Position numbers and translations under genes: made by a program | Origin: Rubrivivax sp. | Lineage (GTDB): Bacteria; Pseudomonadota; Gammaproteobacteria; Burkholderiales; Burkholderiaceae_C | Length of the DNA stretch: 64,000 bases | Assembly: GCA_022842595.1 (NCBI GenBank) | Contig: JALHPF010000032.1 | Span: forward strand, 1-64,000 | Reading direction: 5' to 3' | The notes under the pieces: model-generated | Database searches by the model: none | What the model was told of the DNA's origin: nothing | What the model saw: the letters and a program-made list of their open reading frames with translations, nothing else | Part shown: positions 31,918 to 62,821 of the stretch, one piece after another | How the letters are laid out: every line of letters begins with the position of its first letter | Numbering within the stretch: position 1 is the first letter of the stretch

Positions 31918-31940
31918 TTATGAAGGCCTGTGCATATCGC
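31918..31940 (+). promoter_or_regulatory. Shared 23-bp operator-like motif, copy 1
   Basis: TTATGA-N9-CATATCGC lies between the divergent sulfite-oxidase-fold gene (88 bp to its start) and the ABC operon (117 bp to its GTG). The same pattern, same spacing and same orientation to the downstream gene are found at 39028-39050 and 62799-62821. The TATG/CATA halves form an imperfect dyad, as expected for a dimeric regulator. Confidence 0.65.
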
Positions 31941-32056
31941 GTCGGGCAGTGGCGCCCACAATAATTGCGCGCTGTTGCCGCTCGGTCCAACGGGCGCCGT
32001 GCTTCGGGGCTCGCCAGCGGTCACCCGGCCCCCGAACCCTTGGTCCACCCGAACCC

Positions 32057-33085
32057 GTGATCCATCGTCGTCGTTTTGTCGCAGGTCTCGGCGCAGCCAC
32101 ATTGGCTGCCCCAGCCCTGGCTCAGGAAGCCCCCCTGGTCGATGGCGCCGGCCGCAAGCTGGTCATTCCGCGACGCGTCGAACGGGTGATGCCCGCCGGC
32201 ACCCCGGCGGCCATCAAGGTCTACACCCTGGCCCCAGAGACGCTGATCGGCTGGCCACGCGCCAACCCTGCCGAGGAGCTGGAATTCCTGCTGCCCGGCA
32301 TCGCCCGGCGCCCCACGGTCGGCTGGATCACGAGCCGGGGCAACGCCGCCAATCTCGAGGCCGTGCTGGCCGAGCGGCCCGACCTCATCGTCGACAGCGG
32401 CTCGCTGCGGCCGACCTATGTCGAACTGGCCGAACGGGTGCAGGCGCAGACCGGCGTTCCCTACGCGCTGCTGGACGGCAGCTTCAGTGCCATTGCCAAC
32501 AGCTACGCGGTGCTGGGTGCGCTGCTCGGCCGCCAGGCCCGCGCCGCCGAACTGGGTCGCTATGCCCAGGACAGCCTGCGCACCATCAGTGCGCGGGTGG
32601 CGACGGTTCCGATGGCGCAACGGCCGCGCGTCTATTACGCGCGCGGGCCGGCTGGCCTTGAAACCGGGCTCGGCGGTTCGATCAACATAGAGATCCTGGA
32701 GTTCATGGGCCTGCCCGTGGTCAGCGCCGGGCTGCGTGGCGGCATGAGCACCGTGTCCATCGAGCAGGTGCTGCAGTGGAACCCCGAGGTCATCGTCACC
32801 ATCGACCCGGGCTTCGCGGCCACGGTGCGTGACAACCCCTTGTGGAGGAGCGTGCGTGCCGTGCAGGCGGGCCGGGTGCACCTGGCCCCGAAGTCGCCGT
32901 TCAACTGGTTCGACTTCCCGCCCGGCGTGAACCGCTTGCCCGGGCTGTGGTGGCTGGGCAAGTTGATGTTCCCGGCGCTGTTCGCGGAGGACCTGCGGAC
33001 GATCACCCGCGACTTCAACCGCCTCTTCTACGGCGTCAGCCTCAGCGACGAGCAGCTCGGCCGGGTCTTGGCCGGGCGCGGCTGA
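32057..33085 (+). CDS. Periplasmic binding protein of a FecCD/BtuCD-type ABC importer (MolA-like)
   Basis: This 342-residue class III (Peripla_BP_2, helical-backbone) binding protein begins with a signal peptide whose n-region RRRF resembles a Tat motif (HRRRFVAGLG, cut after ALAQ). Family features include VMPAGTPAAIKVYTLAPE, GRNANLEAVLAERPDLIV-like wording (GNAANLEAVLAERPDLIVDSG) and QVLQWNPEVIVTID near the end. Such proteins carry siderophores, haem, cobalamin or, in Haemophilus MolA, molybdate/tungstate. The neighbouring MOT1 gene favours an oxyanion. The start is GTG 32057, because the signal peptide begins there. The ATG-initiated open frame upstream covers the divergent gene. Confidence 0.85.
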   Translation: MIHRRRFVAGLGAATLAAPALAQEAPLVDGAGRKLVIPRRVERVMPAGTPAAIKVYTLAPETLIGWPRANPAEELEFLLPGIARRPTVGWITSRGNAANLEAVLAERPDLIVDSGSLRPTYVELAERVQAQTGVPYALLDGSFSAIANSYAVLGALLGRQARAAELGRYAQDSLRTISARVATVPMAQRPRVYYARGPAGLETGLGGSINIEILEFMGLPVVSAGLRGGMSTVSIEQVLQWNPEVIVTIDPGFAATVRDNPLWRSVRAVQAGRVHLAPKSPFNWFDFPPGVNRLPGLWWLGKLMFPALFAEDLRTITRDFNRLFYGVSLSDEQLGRVLAGRG

Positions 33086-33088
33086 GGC

Positions 33089-34114
33089 ATGCCGCGGTCG
33101 GCGCTACCCGGCACTCTGCTGGCGCTGGGGGTCCTGCTGGCCGGGGTGGCCGTGGCCTTCCTGTTCGGGCGCTTTCCCGTTTCGCTGGCCGACGTGGCGC
33201 GGGTGCTCTGGGCGCAGCTGGGCGGGCCGCCCTCGGGGCTGCCGCAGGCGGTGGAGGCGGTGGTCTGGCAGGTGCGCACGCCGCGGGTGGTGGCGGCCGT
33301 GGCCGTGGGCGCGGCCCTGTCGGTGGCCGGCGCGGCCTTCCAGGGGCTGTTTCGCAACCCGCTCGTGTCGCCCGACATCCTGGGCGCTTCGGCCGGGGCC
33401 GCGCTGGGCGCCGTGCTCGGCATCTATTTTTCGCTGGGCCTGCTGGGCATCCAGGCGGCGGCGTTCGTCGGCGGCCTGCTGGCGGTGGCGCTCGTGTATG
33501 CGCTGGGCGGCATGGTGCGCGGCGGTGAGGCCGTGCTCACGCTGCTGCTCACCGGCATCGTCATCGGCGCGCTGCTGGGCGCCGGCATCGGCCTGATGAA
33601 ATACCTGGCCGACCCCTACGACCAGCTGCCCGCGATGACCTTCTGGCTGCTGGGCAGCCTGTCGCGCACCAGCGGTGCCGACCTGCTGCCGCTGCTGGCC
33701 CCCGTGGTGGCGGGCACGGCCGTGCTGCTGGCGCTGCGCTGGAAGATGAACGTGATGTCGCTGCCCGACGAAGAGGCGCGTGCACTCGGCGCGCCGACCA
33801 CGCTGCTGCGTGTGGCCATCGTTGCCGCAGCCACGCTCGTCACCTCGGCCAGCGTCGCCACCGCCGGCATCGTCGGCTGGGTGGGGCTGGTGGTGCCTCA
33901 TCTGGCGCGATTTCTGGTCGGGCCGTCGTTTGCACGGCTGCTGCCGGCCACGGCCTTGCTGGGCGGCGGCTTCGTGCTCTTCATCGACACGCTGGCGCGC
34001 ACCATGGCGCCCGTGGAAGTGCCGCTGGGCGTGCTCACGGCCGTGGTTGGCACGCCGTTTTTCATCGGCCTGCTGCGCAGCAGCCAGCGCGGCGCGCGCC
34101 GGGACTGGTCGTGA
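33089..34114 (+). CDS. FecCD/BtuC-family ABC permease (MolB-like)
   Basis: This 341-residue inner-membrane permease with about nine to ten hydrophobic segments carries the FecCD signature RTPRVVAAVAVGAALSVAGAAFQGLFRNPLVSPDILG-type region (RTPRVVAAVAVGAAL, FRNPLVSPDILGAS). The cytoplasmic coupling region is ARALGAPTTLLRV. WVGLVVPHLARFLVG and the C-terminal TAVVGTPFFIGLL complete the family pattern. It begins three bases after the binding-protein stop, and its TGA overlaps the GTG of the ATPase gene. It is a type II importer permease, the fold of BtuC and Haemophilus MolB. Confidence 0.92.
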   Translation: MPRSALPGTLLALGVLLAGVAVAFLFGRFPVSLADVARVLWAQLGGPPSGLPQAVEAVVWQVRTPRVVAAVAVGAALSVAGAAFQGLFRNPLVSPDILGASAGAALGAVLGIYFSLGLLGIQAAAFVGGLLAVALVYALGGMVRGGEAVLTLLLTGIVIGALLGAGIGLMKYLADPYDQLPAMTFWLLGSLSRTSGADLLPLLAPVVAGTAVLLALRWKMNVMSLPDEEARALGAPTTLLRVAIVAAATLVTSASVATAGIVGWVGLVVPHLARFLVGPSFARLLPATALLGGGFVLFIDTLARTMAPVEVPLGVLTAVVGTPFFIGLLRSSQRGARRDWS

Positions 34115-34878
34115 CGCTGCAGGCCCTGCAGCTGGCGGTGGGCTACCCGGGCCACGCGGTGGGCAGCGGCTTCGACCTGAGCCTGCCACCGGGCCAGGTG
34201 CTGGCCTTGCTCGGCCCGAACGGCGGTGGCAAGACCACGTTGCTGAAGACCCTGCTCGGCCTGCTTCCGGCGCTGGGCGGCGAAGTGCACATCGACGGCC
34301 AGCCGCTGCGCAGCTTCAGCCCGGCGCAGCGCGCGCGTCAGCTGGCCTACGTGCCGCAAAGCCATGCCGGCGCCTTCGCATTCACCGTAGCCGACCTGGT
34401 GCTGATGGGCCGCACGGCGCATGGCACGCTGTTTTCGGCGCCCACGGCGCGCGACCACGCCGCGGCCCGCGCGGCTATCGAACGGCTGGGCATCGGCCAT
34501 CTGGCCGAGCGCCCGGCCACGATGGTGTCGGGGGGTGAACGGCAGCTGGCACTGGTGGCCCGGGCGCTGGCGCAGGAGGCCCGTTTCGTGGTGCTGGACG
34601 AGCCCACGGCGGCCCTGGACTTCGGCAACCAGGGCAAGGTGATGCGCGAGATCCGCGGCCTGGCTGCTGCCGGGCTGGGAGTGCTGTTCACCACCCACGA
34701 TCCGAACCACGCGCTGCGCTTTGCCGACCAGGCGATGCTGATCCGCCAGGGCCGCACGCTGGCCCAGGGACCGGTGGCCGAGGTCATCAGCCAGGCGCTG
34801 CTGGTGCAGTTGTACGACGCGCCCGTGGACCGCATTCAGGCCCCCGACGGCGGCCAGCCGGCGTTTCTGCCGGCTTGA
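34111..34878 (+). CDS. ABC ATPase of the FecCD-type importer (MolC/FecE-like)
   Basis: This 255-residue ATPase has Walker A GPNGGGKTT (about 30-38), signature VSGGERQLALVARALAQ and Walker B FVVLDEPTAALDF. YVPQSHAGAFAFTVADLVLMGR is typical of FecE/BtuD/MolC ATPases. It starts with GTG in a GTGA overlap with the permease stop, so it is translationally coupled. The MOT1-type gene follows 16 bp later. Confidence 0.93.
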   Translation: MTLQALQLAVGYPGHAVGSGFDLSLPPGQVLALLGPNGGGKTTLLKTLLGLLPALGGEVHIDGQPLRSFSPAQRARQLAYVPQSHAGAFAFTVADLVLMGRTAHGTLFSAPTARDHAAARAAIERLGIGHLAERPATMVSGGERQLALVARALAQEARFVVLDEPTAALDFGNQGKVMREIRGLAAAGLGVLFTTHDPNHALRFADQAMLIRQGRTLAQGPVAEVISQALLVQLYDAPVDRIQAPDGGQPAFLPA

Positions 34879-34893
34879 GCCCGGGCCGAACCC

Positions 34894-36078
34894 TTGCCCG
34901 ACGTCTTGTCTGAAGCGCCAACCCCGCACACGCCGCCAGGCAACCACTATGGCTTGCGCGAGTGGGCCGGCGCCTGCGGCGACCTGGGCACGCTGCTGCC
35001 CTTCGTGCTGGCCTACCTGACCGTGCTGAGGCTCGACCCCTTCGGCGTGCTTTTCGGTTTCGGCGTCTCGATGATCGCCTGCGGCCTGCTCTACAAGACG
35101 CCGATTCCGGTACAGCCGATGAAGGCCATCGGCGCCGTGGCGGTGGGCACGTCGGCGCAGGCCGTGGCGCTGACCCCCGGCGTCATTCAAGGCGCCTGCC
35201 TGGTCACCGCACTGATCTGGCTGCTGCTGGGGGCCACGGGCGTGGCACGCCGAATCGGCGGCTGGGTCAGCACGCCGGTGGCCCAGGGCGTGGTGCTGGG
35301 GCTGGCCCTGGCCCTGGCGTGGCAGGGCCTGCAGCTGATGCGCGAGGCCTGGCTGCTGGCCGCGACCGGTCTGGCGACGGCCTGGCTTCTGGCGCGCGCC
35401 ACGCGGCTGCCGGGCATCTTGGCGCTGCTGCTGCTGGGGCTGGCCTGGACAACCTGGCACAAGCCCGATGCCTGGGCCGCGCTGGGAACGCTGGGCCTGC
35501 AGCTGCGCGGGCCGAGTCTGGCGCCTTCGCTGCCGACGACACAGGAGCTGCTGCTGGGCGCCGTGCTGCTGGCCTTGCCGCAGGCGCCGCTGACCCTGGG
35601 CAACGCCATCATCGGCATCCGTGCCGAGAACAACCGGCTGTTTCCCGAGCGCCCGGTCAGTGAACGCCGGCTGGCCCTGTCCACTGGCGGGATCAACCTG
35701 TTCGGTGCCGCTGTCGGCGCGGTGCCCATGTGCCATGGCGCCGGCGGCATGGCCGCGCACGTGGCCTTCGGCGCCCGCACCGGGGGTGCCGTGGTCATTC
35801 TCGGCGGCGTGCTTCTGGTGCTGGCGCTGGGCTTCAGCCATGGGGTGATGCAGCTCTTCAGCCTGGTGCCGCCCGCGCTGCTGGGCGCCGTGTTGCTGAT
35901 CACTGCCGCCCAGCTGGGGCTGGGCCAGCTGCGCCTGGGGCGCGATACCCGGGCCTGGACGGTACTGGCCTTGACCGCGGCCGTCAGCGTCTGGCAGGTG
36001 GCCGCAGGCCTGGCGCTGGGTGTGGTCTTGCAGTGGCTGCTGCTGCGCCAGCGCCCAGGTGATTCGAGTGTGCCGTGA
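34894..36078 (+). CDS. MOT1-type sulfate/molybdate permease
   Basis: This membrane protein of about 394 residues has ten or so hydrophobic segments and belongs to the MOT1/SulP-related family. Diagnostic stretches are GDLGTLLPFVLAY at the first membrane segment and PIPVQPMKAIGAVAVGTSA in the second. LTLGNAIIGIRAEN and GAVPMCHGAGGMAAHVAFGARTG complete the pattern. MOT1 is the high-affinity molybdate transporter of plants and algae, and bacterial members are annotated as sulfate/molybdate transporters. It is fourth in the ABC operon, giving two inner-membrane routes in one transcript. No ATG fits before the first membrane segment, so translation probably starts at TTG 34894 or a nearby non-ATG codon. 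Confidence 0.83.
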   Translation: MPDVLSEAPTPHTPPGNHYGLREWAGACGDLGTLLPFVLAYLTVLRLDPFGVLFGFGVSMIACGLLYKTPIPVQPMKAIGAVAVGTSAQAVALTPGVIQGACLVTALIWLLLGATGVARRIGGWVSTPVAQGVVLGLALALAWQGLQLMREAWLLAATGLATAWLLARATRLPGILALLLLGLAWTTWHKPDAWAALGTLGLQLRGPSLAPSLPTTQELLLGAVLLALPQAPLTLGNAIIGIRAENNRLFPERPVSERRLALSTGGINLFGAAVGAVPMCHGAGGMAAHVAFGARTGGAVVILGGVLLVLALGFSHGVMQLFSLVPPALLGAVLLITAAQLGLGQLRLGRDTRAWTVLALTAAVSVWQVAAGLALGVVLQWLLLRQRPGDSSVP

Positions 36079-36109
36079 GCACCGTGAGCACCGTGAGCGC
36101 CGTGAATGC
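36074..36109 (+). repeat. Four tandem 9-bp units at the MOT1 stop codon
   Basis: CGTGAGCAC occurs twice exactly, then CGTGAGCGC and CGTGAATGC, with no gaps. The MOT1 stop TGA lies in the first unit and the array ends seven bases from the convergent methyltransferase stop. Slippage here would alter the MOT1 tail only slightly. Confidence 0.75.
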
Positions 36110-36115
36110 CAGGCT

Positions 36116-36949
36116 TCAGTGTGCAGCCACATCCCAGCCGATGAAGGCCCAGCGCATCGGTGCCCCGCCGCCCTGGGCGCGTTCGGGATTGGCGTCGTAC
36201 CAGCTGCGCAGGCGGTTCTTGGCCGCATCATCCAGGGGCCCGGTCGACCAGGCCAGGCGCTGCACGAAGTCGTCGAAACCCGTGCTGTGAGCCAGGCGGC
36301 TGGGCGTCAGGATGTAGTCCAGCCTGGCGTGCACGCCCATGCGGCGCAGCATGCCCAGCACGAGCAGCAGGTCTGGAACCTCGGGTACGGAGCCGTGCTG
36401 CGCCCCGAGCACATCGAGAATCTCCCGCGCCACGAAGAAACCGTCGGCGGGGTAGCTGAAGTAGGCGCGCAGACGCGTGTGCCGCGCCATCTTGTGCAGC
36501 GCGGCCTCTAGGTCGTCGACGGTGGTAGAGCGTGAGGCGATGGCCACGTCGCACACCGGCACGTCGTCCCAGTCGTCTTCCCAGGCGCGGTGCAGGGCGC
36601 GGATATTGTCAAGCCCTGCGGCGGCGGCCTGCGACTGCAGCGCTTCGAGCATGCGCGGGCTGTGGTCCAGCGCGGTGACTTCGGCGACCCGCTGCGCCAG
36701 GGGCAGGGCCAGGGTGCCCGGGCCGCAGCCGATGTCCAGCACGCTGTTCACGCCGTTCAGGTCGAGCCGGCCCAGGAAGTCGTCGACGTAGCTGCTGCGG
36801 TCGCCGCGTGCGCCCTGGCTGCGGGCGTAGTCGGCAGCGCGGCTGTCCCAGGCGCTGGCCGGCTTGGGCACCAGCCGGTGCCGCCGCATGTGTTCGCGGT
36901 ACAAAGCCGCGAAGTCGATCTCGTCCAGTGACTGCGCGTCAGAAGGCAT
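36116..36949 (-). CDS. Class I SAM-dependent methyltransferase
   Basis: This 277-residue protein has a Rossmann methyltransferase core: motif I VLDIGCGPGTLALPLAQ (about 85-101), motif II region VTALDHSPRMLEAL, then the motif III/IV region CDVAIASRSTTVDD. The N-terminus (FAALYREHMRRHRLVPKPASAWDSRAADYA) has a form I recognise from methyltransferases next to metal-type transport genes. The substrate is unknown. It overlaps the end of the TonB-dependent receptor by 11 bp, so it is co-transcribed with it. An ATG three codons earlier (36958) is an alternative start. A role in modifying a metallophore or cofactor is conceivable but unproven. Confidence 0.82.
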   Translation of the reverse strand: MPSDAQSLDEIDFAALYREHMRRHRLVPKPASAWDSRAADYARSQGARGDRSSYVDDFLGRLDLNGVNSVLDIGCGPGTLALPLAQRVAEVTALDHSPRMLEALQSQAAAAGLDNIRALHRAWEDDWDDVPVCDVAIASRSTTVDDLEAALHKMARHTRLRAYFSYPADGFFVAREILDVLGAQHGSVPEVPDLLLVLGMLRRMGVHARLDYILTPSRLAHSTGFDDFVQRLAWSTGPLDDAAKNRLRSWYDANPERAQGGGAPMRWAFIGWDVAAH

Positions 36950-38948
36950 GCCGGGCATTGACAGTCCAGGTGCGGCCTGCCGACGGGAAGCCGTCGTCGA
37001 GCGCGTAGTTCTTGTCCGCGAGATTGTCGCCACCCACATCCAGGCTCAGGCCCGGCAGCGGGCTCCAGCTGACCCTGAGCCCGGCCACGGTGTAGCCCGG
37101 CAGCGCCACGGTGTTGGACGCCCAGCGCGAACTGTTGTGCTCCAGCGTGGCCTGAAGGGCCCACTGCGCCGAGGGCTGCACGCGTGCAAAGACGAACAGC
37201 TTGCGGTCGGGCACGCTCAGCACGCGCAGGCTGGGGTCGGAGATGTTCTTCTGCTGCAGCAGCGTCAGGTTGCCACCCAGTTCCAGCCAGGCCATCGGCT
37301 GGCTGCGCAGGCCCAGTTCGGCGCCTTCGACGCGGGCCCGGCCCACATTGCGCACCTGGCAAGGCGTGGCCGCGCTGCACGAGGTGCCGGCACCGATGAA
37401 GACCGACTGGATCTTGTCGTCGACACGGCTGGCGAACACCGCAGCCTCGACCGCCAGGCCCTTCAGGGGCTGGCCGACATAGCCGAATTCCAGGTTCAGC
37501 GAACGCTCGGCGCCCAGCGCCGGGTTTTCGACGAAGCTGCCCAGGCGCTGCGAATAGCGGTCCTTGATGGTCGGCAGGCGGGTCTTGCGTGCCAGCGTGC
37601 CGTAGACGCGGCTGCTGCCCGAGAGTTCGTGGAACAGGCCGGCCTGCAGGTTGGTGGCTCGCGTGGATGCGGGCAGGCCGTAGGCGCTGCTGCTGCTGAA
37701 TACCGCATCGGGCTTCAGCTGATGGCGGGCGCCGCCCAGTGACAGCTGCCATTGTTCGCCCAGGTTGATCAGGTCCTCGATGCCCAGCGAGCGCAGGCTG
37801 TCCTCGAACAATGCGCCGCGCACGGCGTTGGCGTCGACCTCCTCGTGCCGGTCACTACGCTGCTGGAGCACGGCGCGCAGCACATGGCCGGCGAAGCGGC
37901 GCGACTCCACTTCCACGGCGCCGCCGCGCGTGCGGTCATGGTAGATGCTGCGGCCGGTGGCCACGCTGCCCTGGCCGCTGGTGCGCAGCGTGGTGTAGCT
38001 GGCGTTGGTATAGCTCGTCACCTCGTTGTCGAAGCTGTCGGCATACAGGCGCAGCTTGACGGTTTCTGCCGCACCCAAGGCCGTGGTCGACACGAAGTAG
38101 AGGCTTTCCTTGTCCCAGAAGGGCCAGCGCCAGTAGCGCACGCCCGTCGTGCCGGTGGTGGGCGGCTGGCCCTTGCGGCCGTCCTGCTTGTAGTAGGCCA
38201 GCGCGTATTCGTCGGTGGTGTTCGGCGTCAGTCCCAGCTTCAGCGACAGCTTGCTGTCGCGGCGGTCGCTGTTGTTGCGCAGGCCGCCGTCTTCGGTAGC
38301 GGTGGGTACGAAGTCGCCCGACAGTGGGAAGCCGTCGGCCTGCCGGTGCGACAGCCCGGCTTGCGCGTACCACATGCCTTGGCGGGTGCCGAGGTTGACC
38401 GCAGCGCTTCGGTCCTTCCCGCTGCCGACACCGAGTGAAACGTCGCCCTCCAGCGCGCGGCTGGGCTTGCGCGTGACGACGTTGATGGCGCCGCCCAACG
38501 CGTTCGGGCCATAGGCGATGGAACTGAAGCCCTTGGCCACCTGGATGGCGGCGATGTCCTGCGTGCCGAAACGATTGAAGTCGACATAGCCGTCATAGGG
38601 CACGTACACAGGCACACCGTCGACGAACAGCGGCACCTGGCGCGCGTCGAAGCCGCGCAGGAACACCAGCAATTCGTTGCGCGAGTTGTTCGACAACGTC
38701 ACGCCCGGCAGCAGGTTCACGGCATCGCCCACGGTCTCGCGGCCGAAGCGCTGCATGTCGCGCCGCGTCACAAGCGAAGCGGCCTGGTCCTGCGGCATCT
38801 CGCCGACCTGGGCGCGTGTGCCGGTGACGGTGACAGTGCCCAGAGCGAAGGCGCCGTCCTGCGCCAGGGCGGGCGATGCGGTGAATGTTGTGCAGCTGGC
38901 GCAGGCGAGCGCCAGGGCGTGGCAACGTGAAGGGAGTGTTTTTGTCAT
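36939..38948 (-). CDS. TonB-dependent outer-membrane receptor
   Basis: This 669-residue receptor has a signal peptide (cut near ALAQDG), a plug domain and a 22-strand barrel. The plug shows a TonB-box-like GTVTVTGTR, GDAVNLLPGVTLSNNSRNELLVFLRGFDARQVPLFVDGVPVY and FSSIAYGPNALGGAINVVTRKP. The barrel ends in Phe (RHAF), as required for Bam insertion. The receptor class resembles siderophore and vitamin B12 receptors. Its ligand cannot be read directly. Its setting opposite a FecCD-type importer plus MOT1, and an operator-like motif shared with a tungstate-binding-protein gene, point to a molybdate/tungstate species or a chelate. Start MTKTLPSRCHAL follows from the signal peptide. Confidence 0.92.
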   Translation of the reverse strand: MTKTLPSRCHALALACASCTTFTASPALAQDGAFALGTVTVTGTRAQVGEMPQDQAASLVTRRDMQRFGRETVGDAVNLLPGVTLSNNSRNELLVFLRGFDARQVPLFVDGVPVYVPYDGYVDFNRFGTQDIAAIQVAKGFSSIAYGPNALGGAINVVTRKPSRALEGDVSLGVGSGKDRSAAVNLGTRQGMWYAQAGLSHRQADGFPLSGDFVPTATEDGGLRNNSDRRDSKLSLKLGLTPNTTDEYALAYYKQDGRKGQPPTTGTTGVRYWRWPFWDKESLYFVSTTALGAAETVKLRLYADSFDNEVTSYTNASYTTLRTSGQGSVATGRSIYHDRTRGGAVEVESRRFAGHVLRAVLQQRSDRHEEVDANAVRGALFEDSLRSLGIEDLINLGEQWQLSLGGARHQLKPDAVFSSSSAYGLPASTRATNLQAGLFHELSGSSRVYGTLARKTRLPTIKDRYSQRLGSFVENPALGAERSLNLEFGYVGQPLKGLAVEAAVFASRVDDKIQSVFIGAGTSCSAATPCQVRNVGRARVEGAELGLRSQPMAWLELGGNLTLLQQKNISDPSLRVLSVPDRKLFVFARVQPSAQWALQATLEHNSSRWASNTVALPGYTVAGLRVSWSPLPGLSLDVGGDNLADKNYALDDGFPSAGRTWTVNARHAF

Positions 38949-39027: not shown

Positions 39028-39050
39028 GCAATATGAACAAGCTTGCATAG
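39028..39050 (-). promoter_or_regulatory. Shared 23-bp operator-like motif, copy 2
   Basis: Read on the minus strand it is CTATGC-N9-CATATTGC, 80-102 bp upstream of the TonB-dependent receptor start. It has the same spacing and orientation as copies at 31918 and 62799. It lies in the 115-bp gap between the receptor gene and the DUF779 gene. Confidence 0.65.
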
Positions 39051-39063
39051 CGCCGCCCGGCAC

Positions 39064-39518: not shown

Positions 39519-41039
<1,521 letters not shown>

Positions 41040-41286
41040 GGGTGACTTCCGATGGCATGAGCGAACTGGGGGTGCACGTGGTCTCGCGTTGAGGCCGCTG
41101 GCATCGAGTCGACAGCGCATACAGCACGTGTCTTGCGGTCATCATTGACCATCCCGATGCGTTCAACCCATTGGGGCATTCACCTTGGATAGCGATTGCA
41201 TAGGTGTCCCAGGCTGTGCCATTTCGGCGCAGTCGACAGACCGGTTTCGCGGCAATGAGCGCCGCGATCGGCGATGTCCGCGGGCC

Positions 41287-43087: not shown

Positions 43088-43091
43088 CGCC

Positions 43092-52022: not shown

Positions 52023-52032
52023 GTTGTGCACT

Positions 52033-53484: not shown

Positions 53485-53518
53485 GAGGTGGGGCGCCGGA
53501 GATGTCTCTGATCTTGTG

Positions 53519-53532
53519 TGAAACCGCTTTCA
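53519..53532 (-). promoter_or_regulatory. LacI-type operator 2 (porin-GH17 operon)
   Basis: TGAAACCGCTTTCA, which reads TGAAAGCGGTTTCA on the minus strand, is identical to operator 3. It lies 35-48 bp before the porin start, and a CAAGAT -10-like box follows immediately on the minus strand. Confidence 0.85.
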
Positions 53533-53674
53533 GAAGCGTAGCGGATGACGTCTTGAGCCGTCAACCTTGGTAACCCCCGTGTTTTCCCCTCGGAGGGCTT
53601 CCCGCAGGCCTGTCCCGCCGCCGGCTCCGGCCGGCATCAGCCCAAGTCTGCTGCGGGTAAACCTAAGTGCGCCA

Positions 53675-53688
53675 TGAAAGCGGTTTCA
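53675..53688 (+). promoter_or_regulatory. LacI-type operator 3 (GH81 gene)
   Basis: TGAAAGCGGTTTCA is directly followed by TATGAT (53690-53695), a good -10 box. The site therefore fills the promoter spacer and a bound repressor would block polymerase. It is 73-86 bp upstream of the GH81 start. Confidence 0.87.
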
Positions 53689-53760
53689 CTATGATTTCCG
53701 TTGGGGGTTTCAAGCCCGTTCAGCACAGCTGCGCCCTGGTGTGTCAAGGAGGTAGGCAAC

Positions 53761-56049: not shown

Positions 56050-56119
56050 GCGGCAGGGCAGGGCACGAGGCTTGTGTGGCAAAGCGTCTGAGGGAAAGCG
56101 ATAGTGGCCCGCACATTGC

Positions 56120-56162
56120 CAAGCGCTTTGCCTCGACCTATGCTCATGTGAAAGCGCTTTCA
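56120..56162 (+). promoter_or_regulatory. LacI-type operator 4 with a degenerate upstream partner
   Basis: TGAAAGCGCTTTCA at 56149-56162 is identical to operator 1. A partial copy, CAAGCGCTTTG (56120-56130), is centred about 30 bp upstream, close to three helical turns. The pair lies 111 bp or more before the four-module lipoprotein gene. Confidence 0.8.
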
Positions 56163-56272
56163 GCCGCTTCTTTCATTGCTTTTCCCATTGCTCTTTTCGT
56201 TGGGGAATTCAGGTCATTCGCTGCGCGCGACCGCCTTCCGCCTCGACCCGCCACGTTCCGAAAGTTGCCGCC

Positions 56273-58609
56273 ATGAGCCAGTTGCCCAAAGTCTCGCCCT
56301 TGTCTGCTGCCGCGCTTGCAGCCTTCGTCCTGCTCGGGGGTTGTGGTGGTGGCGACGCTGAACCTCCGCCGAACCGCGTGGCGGCCGTCGTGCCGACGCC
56401 CGCACCAGCACCACCGCCGACGGCTGCGCCTGCTCCGGCGCCCACGCCGGCACCTGCCCCCGTGCCCGCGCCGGCGCCCACCCCCAGCCCGGCACCGGCC
56501 CCTGCGCCTGCCCCTACCCTGGACGGCACCTTGCTCGTGTCCTTCGACGAAGCCATCCCGGTCTTCACGGGCATGGGTGCGTACGGCGGTGCGCTGCCGA
56601 CTGTCGAGGTCGGGCCGGCTGGAGGCACGGGCAATGTCCTCAGGATCCTGAAGCCGGTCAGCCCCGACACCTGGGGCGGCACCTTCTTCAACGTCCAGGC
56701 CATTCCCTTCACCGCGACCCGCAAGGCACTGACCGCGCGGGTCTACTCGACCCGTGCCAACGCGATCATCCGGCTGAAGGTGGAAGGTGCCGCCGGCACG
56801 GCCAGCGTCGAAGTGGCCGGCGCTCCGGCGCTGGCGGCCAACGCCTGGACCACGGTGACCTGGGACCTCGGGGGTGTGGACCCGGCCAGAACCTACACCG
56901 TGGTGGCCATCACGCCTGACCAGGAGGTGGTGACCTCGGGCCAGTCCTACTTCTTCGACAACCTGACCCTGGCTCCGGCCTCCGCGCCCGCGCCTGCGCC
57001 TGCGCCCGGCGTTGCCTTCGTCAACTTCGACGAATCCGTGCCGGCGTTCTCGGCCCTGGGCGCCTACGGTGGCGCGCTGCCCACCGTCGAAGCTGCCCCG
57101 GCCGGCGGCAGCGGCAATGCCCTGAAGATCCTGAAACCCGTGTCGCCGAACACCTGGGGCGGCACCTTCTTCACGACGGCGGCCATTCCCTTCACCGCCA
57201 CCAACAAGTTGATCACCGCCCGGGTCTATTCCAGCCGCGCCGGTGCCGTCATCAAGTTCAAGGTCGAGGTGCCGGGCGGCTCGAGTGTCGAGGTCACCAG
57301 CACACCCACGGGAAGCGCGAACACCTGGTCCACCGTGAGCTGGGACTTCAGCGCAGTCAACCTGAGCAACGCCTACAAGATCATTGCCATCACGCCTGAC
57401 GACACCCTGGTCACCAACGGTCAGGTGTACTGGTTCGACGACATCACGGTGGCCGCCAACAGCACGGCGGCGCCACCACCGGCTTCGAACCCCATCACCA
57501 TCGCCACGCTCGACGAGCCGACGGCTTCTGTCGTGGGCTTCGAAGGCTGCTGGGACTCCACGCTGGTCAACGACCCGGCGGGCGGAACGAACAAGGTGGC
57601 GCGCGTGCTCAAGCCTGGCAGCGGTGTGCCGTTCTATTGCGGCACCACGGTGGTCACGGTCGCCAACGGCGGCTTCCCGCGCATTCCGTTCAGCGCCACC
57701 GCCACCACGGTCACGGCCCGGGTCTGGTCACCCGATGTCGGCATCAAGGTGCGGATGAAGGTCGAGGACATTGCCGATGGCACCAAGTCGGTCGAGACCG
57801 AAGCCACCACCACCGCAGTCGGTTGGCAGACACTGAGCTTCGACTTTGCCAACGCGGCTGCTGGCACGCCCGTGCTGAACCTGACGCACACCCACAACAA
57901 GATCTCGCTGTTCTTCAACTTCGGTGTCAACGGCAGCGGCAAGACCTACTACTTCGACGACATCGCCTTCGTCACCGGCACGGGCACCAATCCCACGCTG
58001 GTGAGCTTCGACGAGCGCAGCTTCGACAACACCCAGTCGCAGCCTGCTGTCTTGAGCGGTTTTGGCGGTGCCGAGAATTCCACGGTCGTCGGCTACGCAG
58101 ACGTCGGTGTACCGGCCGACGGCACCAAGACCGGCAAGCTGGCCAAGGTGGTGAAGAACGCCGGCGAGGTCTGGGCCGGGACCTCGGTGCAGCGCAAGCC
58201 GAACGATGCCGTGCCCACCATTCCGTTTGCTGCGGGTCGCACGAAGATGAGCATGCGCGTCTACAGCGCCTACCCCGGGATGCGGGTGCGAATGAAAGTG
58301 GAGCAGGCCGGTCGCCCCGACTTCAACAGCGAGATCGATGCCTTTACGAGCCTGGCCAACACCTGGGAAACGCTGGTTTTCGACTTCGGACCGAACAGCA
58401 AGCATTTCGTGCCCAGCGGCCCGGGCCCGAACGGCTACATCACCGACCCCGCGAGCCCGGCGTACCGGCCGACTTCACAGCTCGATGTCAGCAAGACCTT
58501 CAACAAGGTCAATGTGTTCTTCGACTACGGGCTGGGGGATGCCGGCTACGACGCCATGCCGGGCACACGCGTGTACTACTTCGACGACATCAAGTTCGTC
58601 GGTTTCTAG
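56273..58609 (+). CDS. Lipoprotein with four tandem carbohydrate-binding-like modules
   Basis: This 778-residue predicted lipoprotein has lipobox LLGGC (Cys24). A Pro/Ala low-complexity linker (about 35-82) precedes four beta-sandwich modules of ~150-200 residues each, each ending in a YFFDNLTL / YWFDDITV / YYFDDIAF / YYFDDIKF strand. Modules 1 and 2 are close repeats (GAYGGALPTVE, GGTFF, AIPFTAT, TARVYS). Modules 3 and 4 are more diverged. The folds look like CBM/galactose-binding domains and no catalytic site is apparent. In the glucan locus, with its own LacI-type operator, it is a plausible surface glucan-capturing protein, an analogue of SusD/SusE in a genome segment with no SusC/SusD pair. 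Confidence 0.82.
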   Translation: MSQLPKVSPLSAAALAAFVLLGGCGGGDAEPPPNRVAAVVPTPAPAPPPTAAPAPAPTPAPAPVPAPAPTPSPAPAPAPAPTLDGTLLVSFDEAIPVFTGMGAYGGALPTVEVGPAGGTGNVLRILKPVSPDTWGGTFFNVQAIPFTATRKALTARVYSTRANAIIRLKVEGAAGTASVEVAGAPALAANAWTTVTWDLGGVDPARTYTVVAITPDQEVVTSGQSYFFDNLTLAPASAPAPAPAPGVAFVNFDESVPAFSALGAYGGALPTVEAAPAGGSGNALKILKPVSPNTWGGTFFTTAAIPFTATNKLITARVYSSRAGAVIKFKVEVPGGSSVEVTSTPTGSANTWSTVSWDFSAVNLSNAYKIIAITPDDTLVTNGQVYWFDDITVAANSTAAPPPASNPITIATLDEPTASVVGFEGCWDSTLVNDPAGGTNKVARVLKPGSGVPFYCGTTVVTVANGGFPRIPFSATATTVTARVWSPDVGIKVRMKVEDIADGTKSVETEATTTAVGWQTLSFDFANAAAGTPVLNLTHTHNKISLFFNFGVNGSGKTYYFDDIAFVTGTGTNPTLVSFDERSFDNTQSQPAVLSGFGGAENSTVVGYADVGVPADGTKTGKLAKVVKNAGEVWAGTSVQRKPNDAVPTIPFAAGRTKMSMRVYSAYPGMRVRMKVEQAGRPDFNSEIDAFTSLANTWETLVFDFGPNSKHFVPSGPGPNGYITDPASPAYRPTSQLDVSKTFNKVNVFFDYGLGDAGYDAMPGTRVYYFDDIKFVGF

Positions 58610-58732
58610 TCGCCGGCGGGGTGGGTCGGCGCGACGGGCGGCCAGGGGGACAGGCAGTGTGCGAAGGCTCAGGCACAGACAATGCTTGAAGACCGCGTTC
58701 AGCCTGATGCTCGGGCTTTACACTTGCTCGCA

Positions 58733-59815
58733 ATGGACAAAATCGCGTGTGCTCCACCGCCGCTATCGCCGTCTCAAGCAGCGTCCCCTCAGTCTGAAGC
58801 TCCCGTCCCATCCGGCAACCCGGTCACCATCGGCATGGTGGCGCAAGCCGCCGGGGTTTCGGCAAGCACGGTCTCACGCGTGCTCAACGGCACCGCCGTG
58901 GTGAATGAGGAAAAGAAGCAAGCCATCGATGCCGCCATCGCCCGGCTCGGCTTCGTGCCCAACCCGGCTGCACGGGGTCTGGCGGGCGGACGGACCTTCA
59001 GTGTGGGTGTCGTCACGCAGGCCCTGGACAGCCCGTTTTACGGCGCGGCCATGCGTGGCATCGAAGAAGCTTTGCTGCCGCGAGGTCTCAGTCCCTTGTT
59101 TGTCAGCGGGCACTGGAATGCCGTCACTGAAGCACGGTGCATCAGTGTGCTGCAGGCTCGTCGTGTCGACGGCATCATCGTCCTGACCGGGCGGCTGACC
59201 GACGAGGCCTTGAAGAACTATGCGGTCACGCAGCCTGTGGTCGTGCTGGGCCGCAGCCTGAAGGCGCCGCACCTGTATGCCTTGAGTTTCGACAACTTCC
59301 TGGGCGGCAGGTTGGCCACCGAGCATCTGATCCAGCTCGGCCACAGGCGCATCGCCTTCATCGCCGGGGACGCCGACCACCCCGATGCCAACGAACGCCT
59401 GCGCGGCTACCGCGCCGCGCTCGAAGCCGCGTCGATCCCTTTCGACGAGGGCCTGGTGGTGCCCGGCGAATACCACGAACTGAGCGGCTTGCTGGCGGTG
59501 GACCGCCTGCTGGCCACCCACCAGCGTTTCACCGCGATCTTCGCCGCCAACGACCAGATGGCGGTCGGGGCGGCCCTGGCCTGTCAACGGCGATCGCTGC
59601 GTGTACCGGAAGACATCTCGATCGTCGGGTTCGACGATCTGCCGACGTCCCAGTACGCGATTCCGCCGCTGACTTCCGTCGAGCAGCCCGCCTACGAACT
59701 GGGCCGGCTGTCTGCCATGGCCATGCTGCAACTTCTGGCAGACGCCGAACCCACCGAAGTGGTGCCCGGCCCCCGGCTGGTCGCCCGTGAATCCAGCAGG
59801 CGCCTGAAGGGCTGA
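58733..59815 (+). CDS. LacI-family transcriptional regulator of the glucan locus
   Basis: This 360-residue regulator has a LacI helix-turn-helix (VTIGMVAQAAGVSASTVSRVLNG, about 31-53) after a ~30-residue Pro/Ser extension. The hinge follows (LGFVPNPAARGLAGGRT), then a periplasmic-binding-protein-like effector domain (GVVTQALDSPFYGAAMRGIE, RRIAFIAGDADHPD, TAIFAANDQMAVGAAL, ISIVGFDDLPTSQY). It is the only LacI-type gene near four LacI-type palindromes, so it is the obvious reader. The inducer is probably a laminari-oligosaccharide. Start ATG 58733 is used. An in-frame ATG 17 codons upstream is less likely. Confidence 0.92.
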   Translation: MDKIACAPPPLSPSQAASPQSEAPVPSGNPVTIGMVAQAAGVSASTVSRVLNGTAVVNEEKKQAIDAAIARLGFVPNPAARGLAGGRTFSVGVVTQALDSPFYGAAMRGIEEALLPRGLSPLFVSGHWNAVTEARCISVLQARRVDGIIVLTGRLTDEALKNYAVTQPVVVLGRSLKAPHLYALSFDNFLGGRLATEHLIQLGHRRIAFIAGDADHPDANERLRGYRAALEAASIPFDEGLVVPGEYHELSGLLAVDRLLATHQRFTAIFAANDQMAVGAALACQRRSLRVPEDISIVGFDDLPTSQYAIPPLTSVEQPAYELGRLSAMAMLQLLADAEPTEVVPGPRLVARESSRRLKG

Positions 59816-59890
59816 ACGGCTGCAGGGCTGAAGCACCTGCGGCGAGCGTCGGCCCGCGGTCAGGGCTGAAGTCGGGTCCGGAGCTCGTGG

Positions 59891-61126
59891 TCAGGCGGGC
59901 CCAGCGTCTTCAACTTCCCCGCTGCTACTCCCTGCGGGACCTTGCGCAAACGCAGGGTGACCGTGCGCTGCCAGCGCTCTGCCACGGGTTCCGGCTCGCT
60001 TTGCCGACCTGTAATGCCACCAGGGCAATGCACGCGTCAGCGACAGCACCACGCCTGGCCGCTGCACACCGTAGCCTGGCAGCCGCGCCAGCGCCTGCAT
60101 CCAGGCGGTGCTGGCCAGCACTTCGCGCAGCGCCTGTACCGCGGGCAGTTCGAGCGCTGGCTTCAGACACACCAGGAAGTAGTCCTCTTCGGCCAGCGGC
60201 CAGAAGTCCAGGCCGAAGCTCCGCGCCGCGGCTTCGATGCCCAGCCCGGCGTCGGCCTTGCCGGCGGCCACGGCCGCGGCCACGGCCACGTGGGTGTGCT
60301 CGACGCGCGTGCCCTGGCCGTCGAAGTGGGTGGCGTCCAGGCTGGCGGCCTGAAGCAGGTGGTCCAGCAGCAGCCGCGTGCCCGAGCCGGGCTGGCGATT
60401 GACGAAGCGGCCCTGGCCGCGGGCCAGCGCCGGCAGCACATCGGCAGGCGCCAGGCCATGGAAGGGGCTGTCGGGCCCGCGGCGGAACATCAGGCCCTGG
60501 CACCGCCAGTGGCTGCCGATGAGCTTGTGCGTACCGGGCTTGAGCAGCGGCCGCAGCGTGCGGGCAAAGCGGCCGGAACCCGCAGCTTCGTCGCCCAGCC
60601 GCGGCACATGGAACCCGGCCAGCGTGCAGCGGCCCTCCAGCAGGCTGCGCAAGGCCTCTTCGCTGCCCGCAAAGCGCAGCGCCAGGTGCACGCTGCCCCG
60701 GGCCTCGGCCAGCGCCTGCAGTTGCGGCAAGCCCAGGTCGTGGCTGGCGGCGATGTCCAGCAGCGGCACCCCGGTGTCTTCGGCCAGCGCAAACACGCGG
60801 TTCAGTTCCGTTCGCAGGGCTTCCACGTGCGGCGTCATGCGCGTGCGGGCCTGCCGTTCGGCCCAGACCAGGCGTTCGGCGAAGGGTGTCAGCCGCGCAT
60901 GCCGGCCCTTGGCCCACAGCACCAGCGGCTGGCCGAGCACGTCTTCCCAATGCTTCAGCGAACCCCAGACATGGCGGTACGACTGCCCGAGCGCGCTGGC
61001 CGCCTGGCTGATGCTGCCTTGCTGCTGCAGCGCCGAGAGCAGGTCGAACAGCGGGTTCTCGATCTCTGCGCCCTGCTGCCCCAGGTTTTCGAAGGTGTAG
61101 CGAAGGTGAATGCCGCGTGGCGTCAT
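59891..61126 (-). CDS. ModE-type HTH regulator fused to a binding-protein-like domain
   Basis: This protein has about 411 residues. The N-terminal winged helix (about 15-95; LLSALQQQGSISQAASALGQSYRHVWGSLKHWEDVLGQPLV) is of the ModE/LysR type. The Mop/TOBE molybdate domains of ModE are replaced by a type 2 periplasmic-binding-protein-like domain (about 100-345; FVNRQPGSGTRLLLDHLL, AAAVAAGKADAGLGIEAAA). A ~45-residue tail looks disordered. It is last in the tupA operon and probably senses molybdate, tungstate or a pterin derivative. The start is ATG 61126. GTG 61144, overlapping the previous stop as GTGA, is an alternative. It is the best candidate reader of the shared 23-bp motif. Confidence 0.85.
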   Translation of the reverse strand: MTPRGIHLRYTFENLGQQGAEIENPLFDLLSALQQQGSISQAASALGQSYRHVWGSLKHWEDVLGQPLVLWAKGRHARLTPFAERLVWAERQARTRMTPHVEALRTELNRVFALAEDTGVPLLDIAASHDLGLPQLQALAEARGSVHLALRFAGSEEALRSLLEGRCTLAGFHVPRLGDEAAGSGRFARTLRPLLKPGTHKLIGSHWRCQGLMFRRGPDSPFHGLAPADVLPALARGQGRFVNRQPGSGTRLLLDHLLQAASLDATHFDGQGTRVEHTHVAVAAAVAAGKADAGLGIEAAARSFGLDFWPLAEEDYFLVCLKPALELPAVQALREVLASTAWMQALARLPGYGVQRPGVVLSLTRALPWWHYRSAKRAGTRGRALAAHGHPAFAQGPAGSSSGEVEDAGPA

Positions 61127-61140
61127 GGGGCCGGAGTCTC

Positions 61141-61878
61141 TCACCCTGGGCTGCTGAAGCCATGGTCGCGCAGCACGGCCTGGCCCGGGCTGCCCAGCAG
61201 CATGGCGGCGAAAGCTGCGCCGCCGGCGGGCTCGGGCTCCAGCACGACGAGCCCGTAGCGGACGTCCACGGCCAAGGCGTCAGGCAGGTCCAGAAGGCGC
61301 AGCGCCGGAAAGTCGGCGCAGGCCCGGACTGCGTTGCTGCGGTAGGTGATGAAGACATCGGCCTGCCCGGCCTGCAGCAGGCTGCCGTAGCGGCTGCGTC
61401 CGTCACCCTCTTCAGTCTTTTCACCGCGGCCCGTCAACTGCAGTGCCCTGGTCTTCAGCACCGCGGCGCTGCCGGCCGGGGCGCTGCCGCTGGCTTCGAT
61501 GTGGTCGAACAGCTGCCAGGCATAGTCGCCTGAAGGGTCGGCGCCCGGTGTGCTGGTGCCGATGCGCACGTCGGCGTCCAGCAGCCGGCTGGCCAGCCCC
61601 TGGCCGCGCAGGTCGAACCCCGGCGCGACCAGCAGGCAAAGACGGTTGCGCGCGAAGGGCGACACCGTGTGCGCCCTGCCGGTGCTCACCAGCGCCTGCG
61701 GATGATCGAGGTTGGCAGAAGCGAACAGGCTGCTCGGCTCGCCAGCTTGCAGCCTGTCCCTCAGCAGCCCGGCCGCGCCGAAGCACAGCGTCAGCGGGCG
61801 CCTGAATTCACGCTCGAAACAGGCCCCCAGCACCGTGAACGCCGCACGCAGGCTGCCCGCGGCATGGACGGTGGTCAT
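61141..61878 (-). CDS. ModA-like binding protein without a signal peptide
   Basis: This protein has about 245 residues and the ModA fold pattern: VHAAGSLRAAFTVLGACFE at the N-terminus, then FGAAGLLRDRLQAGEPSSLFASAN and a mid-protein DVFITYRSNAV. ModA proteins are periplasmic, but here the first beta-strand begins at residue 3 and no signal peptide precedes it. An alternative GTG start at 61914 (GTGA overlap with tupA) adds only a polar Gly/Pro segment. It would therefore stay in the cytoplasm unless exported differently. A role as an intracellular oxyanion buffer or partner of the downstream ModE-like regulator is an inference. Confidence 0.78.
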   Translation of the reverse strand: MTTVHAAGSLRAAFTVLGACFEREFRRPLTLCFGAAGLLRDRLQAGEPSSLFASANLDHPQALVSTGRAHTVSPFARNRLCLLVAPGFDLRGQGLASRLLDADVRIGTSTPGADPSGDYAWQLFDHIEASGSAPAGSAAVLKTRALQLTGRGEKTEEGDGRSRYGSLLQAGQADVFITYRSNAVRACADFPALRLLDLPDALAVDVRYGLVVLEPEPAGGAAFAAMLLGSPGQAVLRDHGFSSPG

Positions 61879-61910
61879 GCCCCAGGGGCCAGCGCCGGGC
61901 TGGCCGCCGG

Positions 61911-62735
61911 TCACGAACCCGCGTTCGGGAAGAACAATTGCTCGCCGCCGATCTTGTAGCTGGCGATCGCAGCTTGCCCGGCCGGCGACACGACCCAGTC
62001 GGCGAAGGCCTGGGCCATGTCCTTCTTCACGTGCGGGTGCTTCGCGGGGTTGACGACCATCACGCCATATTGGTTGAACAGGCGCTTGTCGCCTTCGACC
62101 AGGATGGCCAGGTCGGCGCGGTTCTTGAAGTTCAGCCAGGTGCCGCGGTCGGCCAGCACATAGGCGCCCGTGGAACTGGCGATGTTCAGCGCCGGGCCCA
62201 TGCCGCAGCCGCATTCCTTGTAGCCGGCGGGCTTGGCGGTGGCGATGTCGACGTTGGCGGCCTTCCAGTAGCGCAGTTCGGCGGCGTGGGTGCCACTCTT
62301 GTCGCCGCGCGAAATGAAGCTGTTGCTGCCGCTGGCCAGCTTGGCCAGCGCGGCGGTGACGTCCTTGCCACGCACGCCGGCCGGGTCGGATTTCGGGCCA
62401 ATGAGCACGAAGTCGTTGTACATCACCGCCCGCCGTGCGGTGGAAAAACCTTCGGCCACGAACTTCTCTTCGGCCACCTGGTCGTGCACGAAGACGATGT
62501 CGGCGTCACCGCGGCGGCCGGTGTCCAGCGCCTGCCCGGTGCCCACGGCGACCACGCGCACGTCGATGCCGGTGGCCTGCTTGAAAGCCGGCAGCAGGTG
62601 GGTGAACAGGCCGGATTGTTCGGTCGACGTGGTCGAGGCCATGACGATGAACTTGTCCTGGGCCTGGGCCAGGGTAACGGGCAGGCCGAGGGCCAGGGCG
62701 AGGCTCAGGACGTGGAACAGTCGACGCAACAACAT
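61911..62735 (-). CDS. tupA: Tungstate-type ABC binding protein (TupA-like)
   Basis: This 274-residue periplasmic binding protein has a signal peptide (LALALGLPVTLAQAQD). TupA signatures follow: MASTTSTEQSGLFTHLLPAF, VVAVGTGQALDTGRRGDADIVFVHD, the ligand-binding FISRGDKSGTHAAELRYW and YVLADRGTWLNF. TupA binds tungstate with very high affinity, and related proteins bind molybdate. It is first in a three-gene operon with a ModA-like protein and a ModE-like regulator. TupB (permease) and TupC (ATPase) genes, normally adjacent, are absent here. The start is fixed by the signal peptide. The shared 23-bp motif lies 64-86 bp upstream. Confidence 0.9.
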   Translation of the reverse strand: MLLRRLFHVLSLALALGLPVTLAQAQDKFIVMASTTSTEQSGLFTHLLPAFKQATGIDVRVVAVGTGQALDTGRRGDADIVFVHDQVAEEKFVAEGFSTARRAVMYNDFVLIGPKSDPAGVRGKDVTAALAKLASGSNSFISRGDKSGTHAAELRYWKAANVDIATAKPAGYKECGCGMGPALNIASSTGAYVLADRGTWLNFKNRADLAILVEGDKRLFNQYGVMVVNPAKHPHVKKDMAQAFADWVVSPAGQAAIASYKIGGEQLFFPNAGS

Positions 62736-62798
62736 GGTGGGTTCGTGGCAGGCAAGCGGGCTGGGAAGCCTGGATTGTTCCCGGCCATGCATCCAGGC

Positions 62799-62821
62799 GC
62801 GATATGTCGGTCAATGCATAG
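62799..62821 (-). promoter_or_regulatory. Shared 23-bp operator-like motif, copy 3
   Basis: On the minus strand it reads CTATGC-N9-CATATCGC, 64-86 bp before tupA. It matches the copy before the TonB-dependent receptor at all but one fixed position and the copy before the ABC operon at all but two. Confidence 0.65.

Follow-up and report, generated by a model that had tools for sequence, protein, structure and literature searches.

A conserved ModE-like box marks a putative molybdate and tungstate regulon in Rubrivivax

INTRODUCTION

It is generally assumed that molybdate and tungstate pass the outer membrane by passive means, and for FecCD transporters siderophores or B12 are the usual cargo. 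In sulfate reducers, TunR is a tungstate-responsive regulator of molybdenum and tungsten (Mo/W) transport genes, with an integrase-like DNA-binding domain and a MOP-type sensor. For Escherichia coli, PMC545781 quotes the consensus of the ModE box as ATCGNTATATA-N6-TATATANCGAT. Binding of molybdate and tungstate is reported for the product of Haemophilus influenzae HI_1472 (PMC4031551), and in Pseudomonas aeruginosa the delivery of molybdate at the outer membrane is described as the binding of ModA, secreted by the H2 type VI secretion system (H2-T6SS), to IcmP (PMC11734730). The subject here is a 23-bp box that stands before three transport units in a stretch of 64,000 nucleotides from Rubrivivax sp. 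(assembly GCA_022842595.1, contig JALHPF010000032.1, positions 1 to 64,000 of the forward strand; ‘the window’). A preliminary description of the window, made from its sequence, had proposed the box as the mark of a Mo/W regulon read by a ModE-like regulator.

RESULTS

The box in the window and in its genome

The pattern YTATGM-N9-CATATYGC has exactly three matches in the window: copy 1 (TTATGAAGGCCTGTGCATATCGC) at 31918..31940 on the forward strand, and copies 2 (CTATGCAAGCTTGTTCATATTGC, 39028..39050) and 3 (CTATGCATTGACCGACATATCGC, 62799..62821) on the reverse strand. Pattern and positions are those of the preliminary description, whose count of 12 invariant positions among the 23 was also reproduced. 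Three matches were seen in none of 100 dinucleotide shuffles of the window (mean 0.00). Each copy is directed at the gene downstream of it, as had been claimed, and the distances given there of 117, 80 and 64 bp for copies 1, 2 and 3 are correct when counted from the last base of the motif to the first base of the start codon (GTG 32057, ATG 38948 and ATG 62735).

The motif is not scattered through the genome. In the whole assembly (5,463,260 bases in 75 contigs, 94.87% complete), TATG-N10-CATAT-N-GC has three exact matches, all of them the window copies upstream of the transport units, and none in the reversed control. A matrix was made from 35 sites of the genus, with copy 3 included, copies 1 and 2 excluded and loci L061, L079, L084 and L086 left out; positions within the search pattern are fixed in it by construction. 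It gives 25.2, 22.7 and 32.8 bits to copies 1, 2 and 3 and, reverse readings aside (13.4 bits for copy 1, 18.0 for copy 2 on the opposite strand), at most 7.7 bits to any other site in the window. The consensus of the box is C-TATGCA-N7-ACATATCGC. The full palindrome CTATG-N10-CATAG has no exact match in the genome, and copies 2 and 3 are among its one-mismatch matches.

Conservation in the genus and in the family

Of 60 genus genomes, 29 contain TATG-N10-CATAT-N-GC, with 41 matches in all (the three of the window included), against one for the reversed control. All 38 matches outside the window's own genome were examined as stretches, and downstream genes were assigned by tblastn with the window proteins. 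The gene downstream on the same strand is tupA at 22 of the 41 (own copy 3 included), the gene of a TonB-dependent receptor (TBDR) at three (own copy 2 included), a ModA-like gene at three and molA at one (own copy 1); at one match tupA lies on the opposite strand. Conservation extends to positions that the pattern leaves open, with frequencies, pseudocounts included, of 0.80 for C5, 0.69 for A6, 0.64 for A14 and 0.88 for C20. Conservation upstream of orthologues, a check that the preliminary description had called for, was thus found: the box precedes tup genes across the genus and the family, and genome G003 (contig of locus L242) has it at all three units, with 27.4 bits before the TBDR gene, a relaxed site of 20.8 bits at the ModA-like/MolA operon and an exact match before tupA.

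Four of the genus matches, at L079 (8001), L084 (two, 3155-3180) and L086 (8001), belong to a different, TATGTGNAGCTGCACATAYTGC-like near-palindrome, and queries with the window proteins found no Mo/W genes there. A similar open reading frame (ORF) of 435 aa lies nearby in L079 and L086, and the near-palindrome looks unrelated to the Mo/W box.

For the family, with the stricter pattern CTATGCA-N8-CATATYGC, 43 of 299 genomes have a match, from 28 of 141 genera; the matches number 47, against none in the reversed control. This sample holds four genomes of the window's genus, its own included; copies 2 and 3 fit the stricter pattern and copy 1 does not. At the 30 matches examined, all outside the genus, the target is tupB in 24, tupA in two, an aldehyde dehydrogenase gene in three and a weak (26%) ModA-like match in one.

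The transport units

The gene identities of the preliminary description (a MolA-like, FecCD-type operon, a TBDR and tupA) are upheld by domain matches. Copy 1 stands before genes for a MolA-like class III substrate-binding protein (32057..33085, forward strand, GTG start; PF01497), a FecCD-type ATP-binding cassette (ABC) permease (33089..34114, forward) and an ABC transporter ATPase (34111..34878, forward), the latter two recognised by profile matches. The last gene of this operon, left unnamed before, encodes a member of the MFS_MOT1 molybdate-transporter family (34894..36078, forward, start provisional; PF16983, 137.7 bits against a cut-off of 30). Among solved chains, the MolA-like protein matches HI_1472 of H. 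influenzae (3psa; E 2.3e-12, residues 156-329) and is nearer to 4pag, its closest match (E 1.2e-40), and to 4ovk (E 1.3e-15).

Downstream of copy 2 lies the gene for a TBDR of a Mo/W-linked family (36939..38948, reverse strand, ATG 38948), in which both plug (PF07715, 72.9 bits) and beta-barrel (PF00593, 102.5 bits) are present. Its 3' end is overlapped by the gene for an S-adenosylmethionine (SAM)-dependent methyltransferase (36116..37039, reverse).

Copy 3 precedes a string of reverse-strand genes: tupA for a tungstate-binding protein (61911..62735, ATG 62735), a gene for a ModA-like substrate-binding protein (61141..61929, start inferred; PF13531) and the regulator gene considered below. 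TupA is close to the solved tungstate-binding proteins 3lr1 (E 4e-71) and 5my5 (E 8.4e-71), and scores 226.2 bits with the NCBIfam equivalog NF041772, under its cut-off of 400. The tupBC genes lie apart from the window tupA, on contig C7 (L361; 70% identity to the TupB of a relative), and a homologue of the tungsten-containing aldehyde ferredoxin oxidoreductase (AOR) is encoded with a ferredoxin on contig C19 (L362; 84% identity). The presence of tupBC and of the AOR homologue makes the use of tungsten by this organism plausible.

The candidate reader

Behind copy 3, at 59891..61126 on the reverse strand, is the gene of a predicted one-component regulator with an HTH_1 domain and a PBP_like domain (PF12727). 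The N-terminus gives 35.7 bits with HTH_1 (cut-off 26.6) and a weak match to the ModE profile TIGR00637 over residues 26-87 (42.7 bits, cut-off 98.5); the sensor half gives 151.4 bits with PBP_like over residues 138-337. No TOBE/MOP domain was matched at E 0.001. The PBP half also matches the C-terminal part of the NCBIfam molybdopterin-biosynthesis model PRK14498 (135.4 bits, far under the cut-off of 534), which agrees with a Mo/W-related ligand and names none. The structural model of the regulator (mean predicted local distance difference test, pLDDT, 86.5) has LysR-type regulators as its top fold matches, and a search of PDB sequences gave no match at E 0.01. The genome encodes two paralogues, 59% (contig C74) and 41% (contig C28) identical. 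In a tree of 32 rows, the window protein and the C74 protein fall in sister clades of the genus, of 6 and 14 rows respectively, joined at a fork with a support of 89.

Regulator homologues of at least 50% identity are found in 36 of the 60 genus genomes, fragments (G010, G048) counted, and the box goes with them. For the exact motif, the numbers of genomes with motif and regulator, motif only, regulator only and neither are 25/4/11/20 (p = 7e-5); for motif and tupA they are 28/1/17/14 (p = 2e-4). Relaxed sites of 27.0 to 17.2 bits stand right before tupB in five further regulator-positive genomes (G013, G014, G036, G040, G048) and joined the motif set after a matrix scan of the tup loci had been inspected; with them the counts become 30/4/6/20 (p = 5e-7), or 29/4/2/10 (p = 1.7e-5) among tup-positive genomes only. 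At the tup loci of the 10 genomes that are tup-positive and regulator-negative, nothing scored above 8.4 bits, the contigs of G016 and G021 being without the region before tupB. The enlarged motif set shows no such association with ModE (E < 1e-20), the counts being 23/11/16/10 (p = 0.79). Three genomes with box and regulator, G003, G018 and G025 (94, 99 and 96% complete), have only HTH-level ModE matches, which lie within the regulator itself.

At 17 of the 30 family loci, the gene for a regulator homologue stands at the box in divergent orientation to tupB (16 with the default sequence filter, which masked L339). An in-frame start codon lies inside the box in 16 of these 17, mostly as the sole start upstream of the match; L342 has none. 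In the 16 loci, L322, L323 and L328 among them, the CTATGCA half, read in reverse, overlaps the predicted start of the regulator by eight bases and encodes its first codons, Met-His-Arg in most aligned rows, while the CATATCGC half lies outside the coding part. Since the box overlaps the start of the divergent regulator gene, the arrangement would suit autoregulation.

A regulator of the type encoded at 59891-61126 is the best candidate for the reader of the box. The proposal that the ModE-like regulator of the window fills this role is thus backed as to type, by gene order and by co-occurrence, but not as to the exact protein, given the paralogues on C74 and C28.

Relation to the ModE box

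The genome also has a modABC-modE operon, on contig C2, and its only exact canonical ModE box, CGTTATGT-N8-ACATAACG, lies just before modA. This box and all three window copies have the same TATG-N10-CATA spacing. No window copy matches the canonical dyad CGNTATRN-N8-NYATANCG exactly; copies 1 and 2 are at one mismatch and copy 3 is not listed among such matches, in a search of the genome that was near background (20 matches versus 10 reversed). The loose resemblance to ModE sites suggested earlier holds for the dyad, but the geometry is shared exactly rather than loosely, and the true ModE box of the genome is that at modABC.

A symmetric form of the same geometry, CTATGCA-N6-TGCATAG (at least 13 of 14 positions), is found upstream of 6 of 12 ferredoxin-AOR units in the genus (L165, L174, L080, L094, L215 and L225, with 13-14 of 14) compared with 8 of 600 random pieces; the count started from 13 rows, of which L167 was dropped as the same place as L071. 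The upstream region of the window genome's own AOR is among the six that lack it. The simplest reading of these sequences would be one ModE-like family of sites, with two types of flank and two regulators.

The TBDR family

Relatives of the TBDR were sought in genome_contigs with an alignment of four TBDRs. At least 80 loci were obtained, and the counts cover the 80 listed, which are mainly from Beta- and Gammaproteobacteria with a few from Acidobacteria and others; one of them, L320, matches marginally, and contigs of G003, G013 and G050 appear, from their gene order, to be represented by L242, L244 and L298. Homologues of ModE (>80 bits) are encoded in the flanks of 33 loci, of the MolA-like protein (>80 bits) in 17 and of the ModA-like protein (>60 bits) in 16, with one or more of the three in 42; a methyltransferase homologue is inside the flanks in 8.

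A canonical ModE box (11-12 of 12 positions) is present in the 420 bp upstream of the TBDR gene in 60 of 77 usable loci (L309, L316 and L320 excluded), compared with 39 of 1540 random pieces of 420 bp from these loci. A control set of unrelated TBDRs, all of the window's genus, gave 0 of 19 (best score 9); it uses 19 of its 26 loci and differs in composition from the test set, a fault of which the random pieces are free. Most TBDR loci below 40% identity are without a ModE box. The boxes and the Mo/W neighbours of these relatives point to TonB-dependent uptake of molybdate or tungstate, or of a chelate.

The model of the window TBDR has a mean pLDDT of 87.1, with low confidence at residues 1-35 and 42-54. 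Its nearest folds include BtuB, Cir, PhuR, OprC and PqqU, so that the fold does not settle the substrate.

Two further families accompany the receptor; their counts are rough, as the clustering of neighbours picked wrong-frame ORFs in some GC-rich loci. One, of about 180 aa, in which the representative scanned has an Oxidored_molyb domain (PF00174), clusters with the TBDR in 29 of 80 loci (L246, L248, L267, L269 and L281 among them), mostly directly downstream, and is possibly a periplasmic Mo/W partner of the receptor. The other, with a di-haem DHOR (PF06537) representative, does so in 12 loci (L278, L283, L287, L296 and L313 among them), again mostly downstream.

Other genes of the window

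Just upstream of copy 2, the window carries a DUF779 gene and an aldehyde dehydrogenase gene that corresponds to those at three of the family boxes. The region 50235-59815, which adjoins the regulator gene, has matches to GH17, GH81 and CBM35 and a LacI-type regulator, and is probably a beta-glucan utilisation cluster. A gene at 42116-43159 on the reverse strand encodes an APH-type phosphotransferase of the broad family PF01636.

DISCUSSION

A probable regulon for the acquisition of molybdate and tungstate

The box looks like a real regulon marker. The main points of the preliminary description are correct, and the stronger story lies in the receptor family. It is likely that the three boxes are the operators of a single Mo/W-acquisition regulon that would work as follows. 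The box, a variant of the ModE box with the same TATG-N10-CATA spacing and other flanks, would most likely be bound by a dimer of the 59891-61126 regulator or of its C74 paralogue, whose PBP_like domain may sense cytoplasmic tungstate or molybdate, or a cofactor form. Under plentiful metal, the regulator would shut down metal scavenging at all three boxes: its own gene together with tupA and the ModA-like gene, the MolA-FecCD-ATPase-MOT1 operon, and the pair of TBDR and methyltransferase genes. The TBDR would carry scarce molybdate or tungstate, perhaps chelated, over the outer membrane to the MolA and TupA routes.

Several observations weigh against this explanation or qualify it. The regulon survived the tests of scatter and of conservation, but it is incomplete by motif: no box stands in the genome's own stretches with tupBC (C7) and the tungsten AOR (C19), where the matrix gives at best 2.9 bits in each. 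The motif is far less distinct when up to two mismatches are allowed (147 matches in the whole genome versus 101 in the reversed control). For 11 of the 41 genus matches no target was found by tblastn with the window proteins, although at one of these, L094, translations read by eye show the box to be flanked by a TupB-like ORF, which it precedes, and a MoeA-like ORF. Among regulator-positive genomes of the genus, the motif was not found in six: G002, G004, G024 and G041, in which tupA was not matched either, and G020 and G051, where tup and regulator are present and no site stands before tupB. Conversely, no regulator match of at least 50% was found in four motif-positive genomes (G009, G011, G034, G057), whose assemblies are incomplete or fragmented. 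The Fisher p values overstate independence because the genomes are related, and incomplete assemblies weaken them further. Where the box overlaps the regulator start, part of the conservation of its CTATGCA half may stem from coding constraint. At L325, L326 and L327 the box has on one side the aldehyde dehydrogenase gene, with 80-82% identity to window 39519-41120, and on the other a sigma-54-activator-like gene, named by eye. Copies 1 and 2, at one mismatch from the ModE pattern, could also be bound by ModE. Finally, scans for sigma-70 promoters and terminators around the three sites found none, so that, with no promoter to place the box against, action as a repressor and as an activator would both fit.

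Which protein reads the box, and what the receptor carries

The C74 paralogue might be the main reader, the window copy being specialised otherwise. Its protein belongs to the larger of the two clades, the source of most regulator-positive genomes. However, G003, which is boxed at all three units, has a window-type protein as its only match above 50%, and the window regulator itself sits behind copy 3, so that this assignment, while deserving some weight, seems rather unlikely.

A second alternative places the TBDR and MolA-FecCD units outside Mo/W uptake: they would import another substrate, such as an iron siderophore or a corrinoid, and their control by Mo/W would be indirect. The usual cargo of FecCD transporters fits this, as does a TBDR fold that lies at about the same distance from BtuB, Cir, OprC and PqqU. 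Yet ModE boxes precede 60 of 77 relatives of the receptor and none of the 19 unrelated TBDRs, the neighbours of the relatives include homologues of modE, modABC or molABC, the operon ends in a MOT1 gene, and the MolA-like protein is related to HI_1472. Another substrate is therefore unlikely.

Still less credit is due to the possibility that canonical ModE, encoded with modABC on C2, reads the boxes as weak ModE sites. The shared geometry, the single mismatch of copies 1 and 2 and the canonical ModE boxes at the same TBDR family in other genera speak for it. But copy 3 is not among the matches with up to one mismatch, the genome's own modABC keeps a perfect canonical box with distinct flanks, and G003, G018 and G025 have the box and no full-length ModE match. 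Across the 60 genomes the box tracks the PBP-type regulator and not ModE, and the co-occurrence test gave ModE no support as reader.

Chance matching of AT-rich sequence, or a dispersed repeat, would account for the four near-palindrome matches of L079, L084 and L086, but as an origin of the box this is so improbable that it can be set aside, ruled out as it is by the reversed controls in the window's own genome, the genus (41:1) and the family (47:0), by the placement before tup genes and by the conservation of pattern-free positions.

A possible outer-membrane route

A receptor family whose promoters carry ModE boxes in 60 of 77 cases would mean that the uptake of Mo/W at the outer membrane is energy-coupled. 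The variant box would allow a tungstate/molybdate regulon to be recognised across a large bacterial family, with a candidate regulator whose sensor is unlike that of ModE. A broader picture can be put forward tentatively, as one that falls a little short of being probable: import of molybdate or tungstate at the outer membrane may be widespread, through a ModE-controlled TBDR family of Beta- and Gammaproteobacteria and a few others, often feeding MolABC-type or ModABC transporters and sometimes accompanied by the methyltransferase or the PF00174-like protein, whose presence would suggest that the metal arrives chelated and needs handling or release. In the relatives of the window, control would have passed to a Mo/W-sensing regulator with a ModE-type HTH and a PBP sensor, and to the variant box.

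Among the open-access PMC papers listed, for several topics the top 20 of as many as 2,915, none appears to report a TonB-dependent molybdate or tungstate receptor, the variant box or the HTH/PBP_like regulator; subscription papers and regulon databases lay outside this scope, and an earlier note may exist. The main text of a 2024 review of TonB transporters, as far as available, has no word beginning ‘molybd’ or ‘tungst’ (PMC11658791), and the available text of PMC6147048, on molybdenum utilisation, has none beginning ‘TonB’.

Comparison with known systems

The window regulon resembles the proteobacterial ModE regulon in having a TATG-N10-CATA dyad upstream of molybdate/tungstate transport genes and, less certainly, a regulator whose HTH gives a weak match, under the cut-off, to the ModE profile. 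It differs in the flanks of the box, CTATG/CATATCGC rather than the canonical CGTTATG/CATAACG, and in that, genus-wide, the box follows a PBP-domain regulator and not the TOBE-domain ModE. The proteins differ correspondingly: ModE joins its HTH to a TOBE/MOP sensor, whereas the window regulator, for all the weak match of its N-terminal HTH to TIGR00637, has a PBP_like sensor (PF12727), no TOBE match and a model that is LysR-like overall. It is also unlike TunR, having a ModE/LysR HTH and a PBP_like sensor.

Of the TupABC system, the window has TupA, and the box is found at tup operons in other members of the genus and family. The window tupA is grouped with the genes for a ModA-like protein and the regulator, away from tupBC on C7. 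The MolA-type substrate-binding protein, FecCD-type permease and ATPase recall H. influenzae MolBC-A as described in the available part of PMC4031551, where TonB is unmentioned; the window operon differs from it in ending in a MOT1-family carrier and in adjoining a TonB receptor and a methyltransferase gene. An outer-membrane step in the acquisition of molybdate has already been published, in the form of ModA-IcmP of P. aeruginosa, although neither a TonB-dependent receptor nor a ModE box is mentioned in the part of PMC11734730 available. Among receptors, the plug and barrel fold of the window TBDR is that of OprC, BtuB, PqqU and Cir (query-normalised TM-scores of about 0.7-0.78). At 16-19% identity it is distant from all of these, and unlike them it belongs to a family with ModE-type control and Mo/W neighbours.

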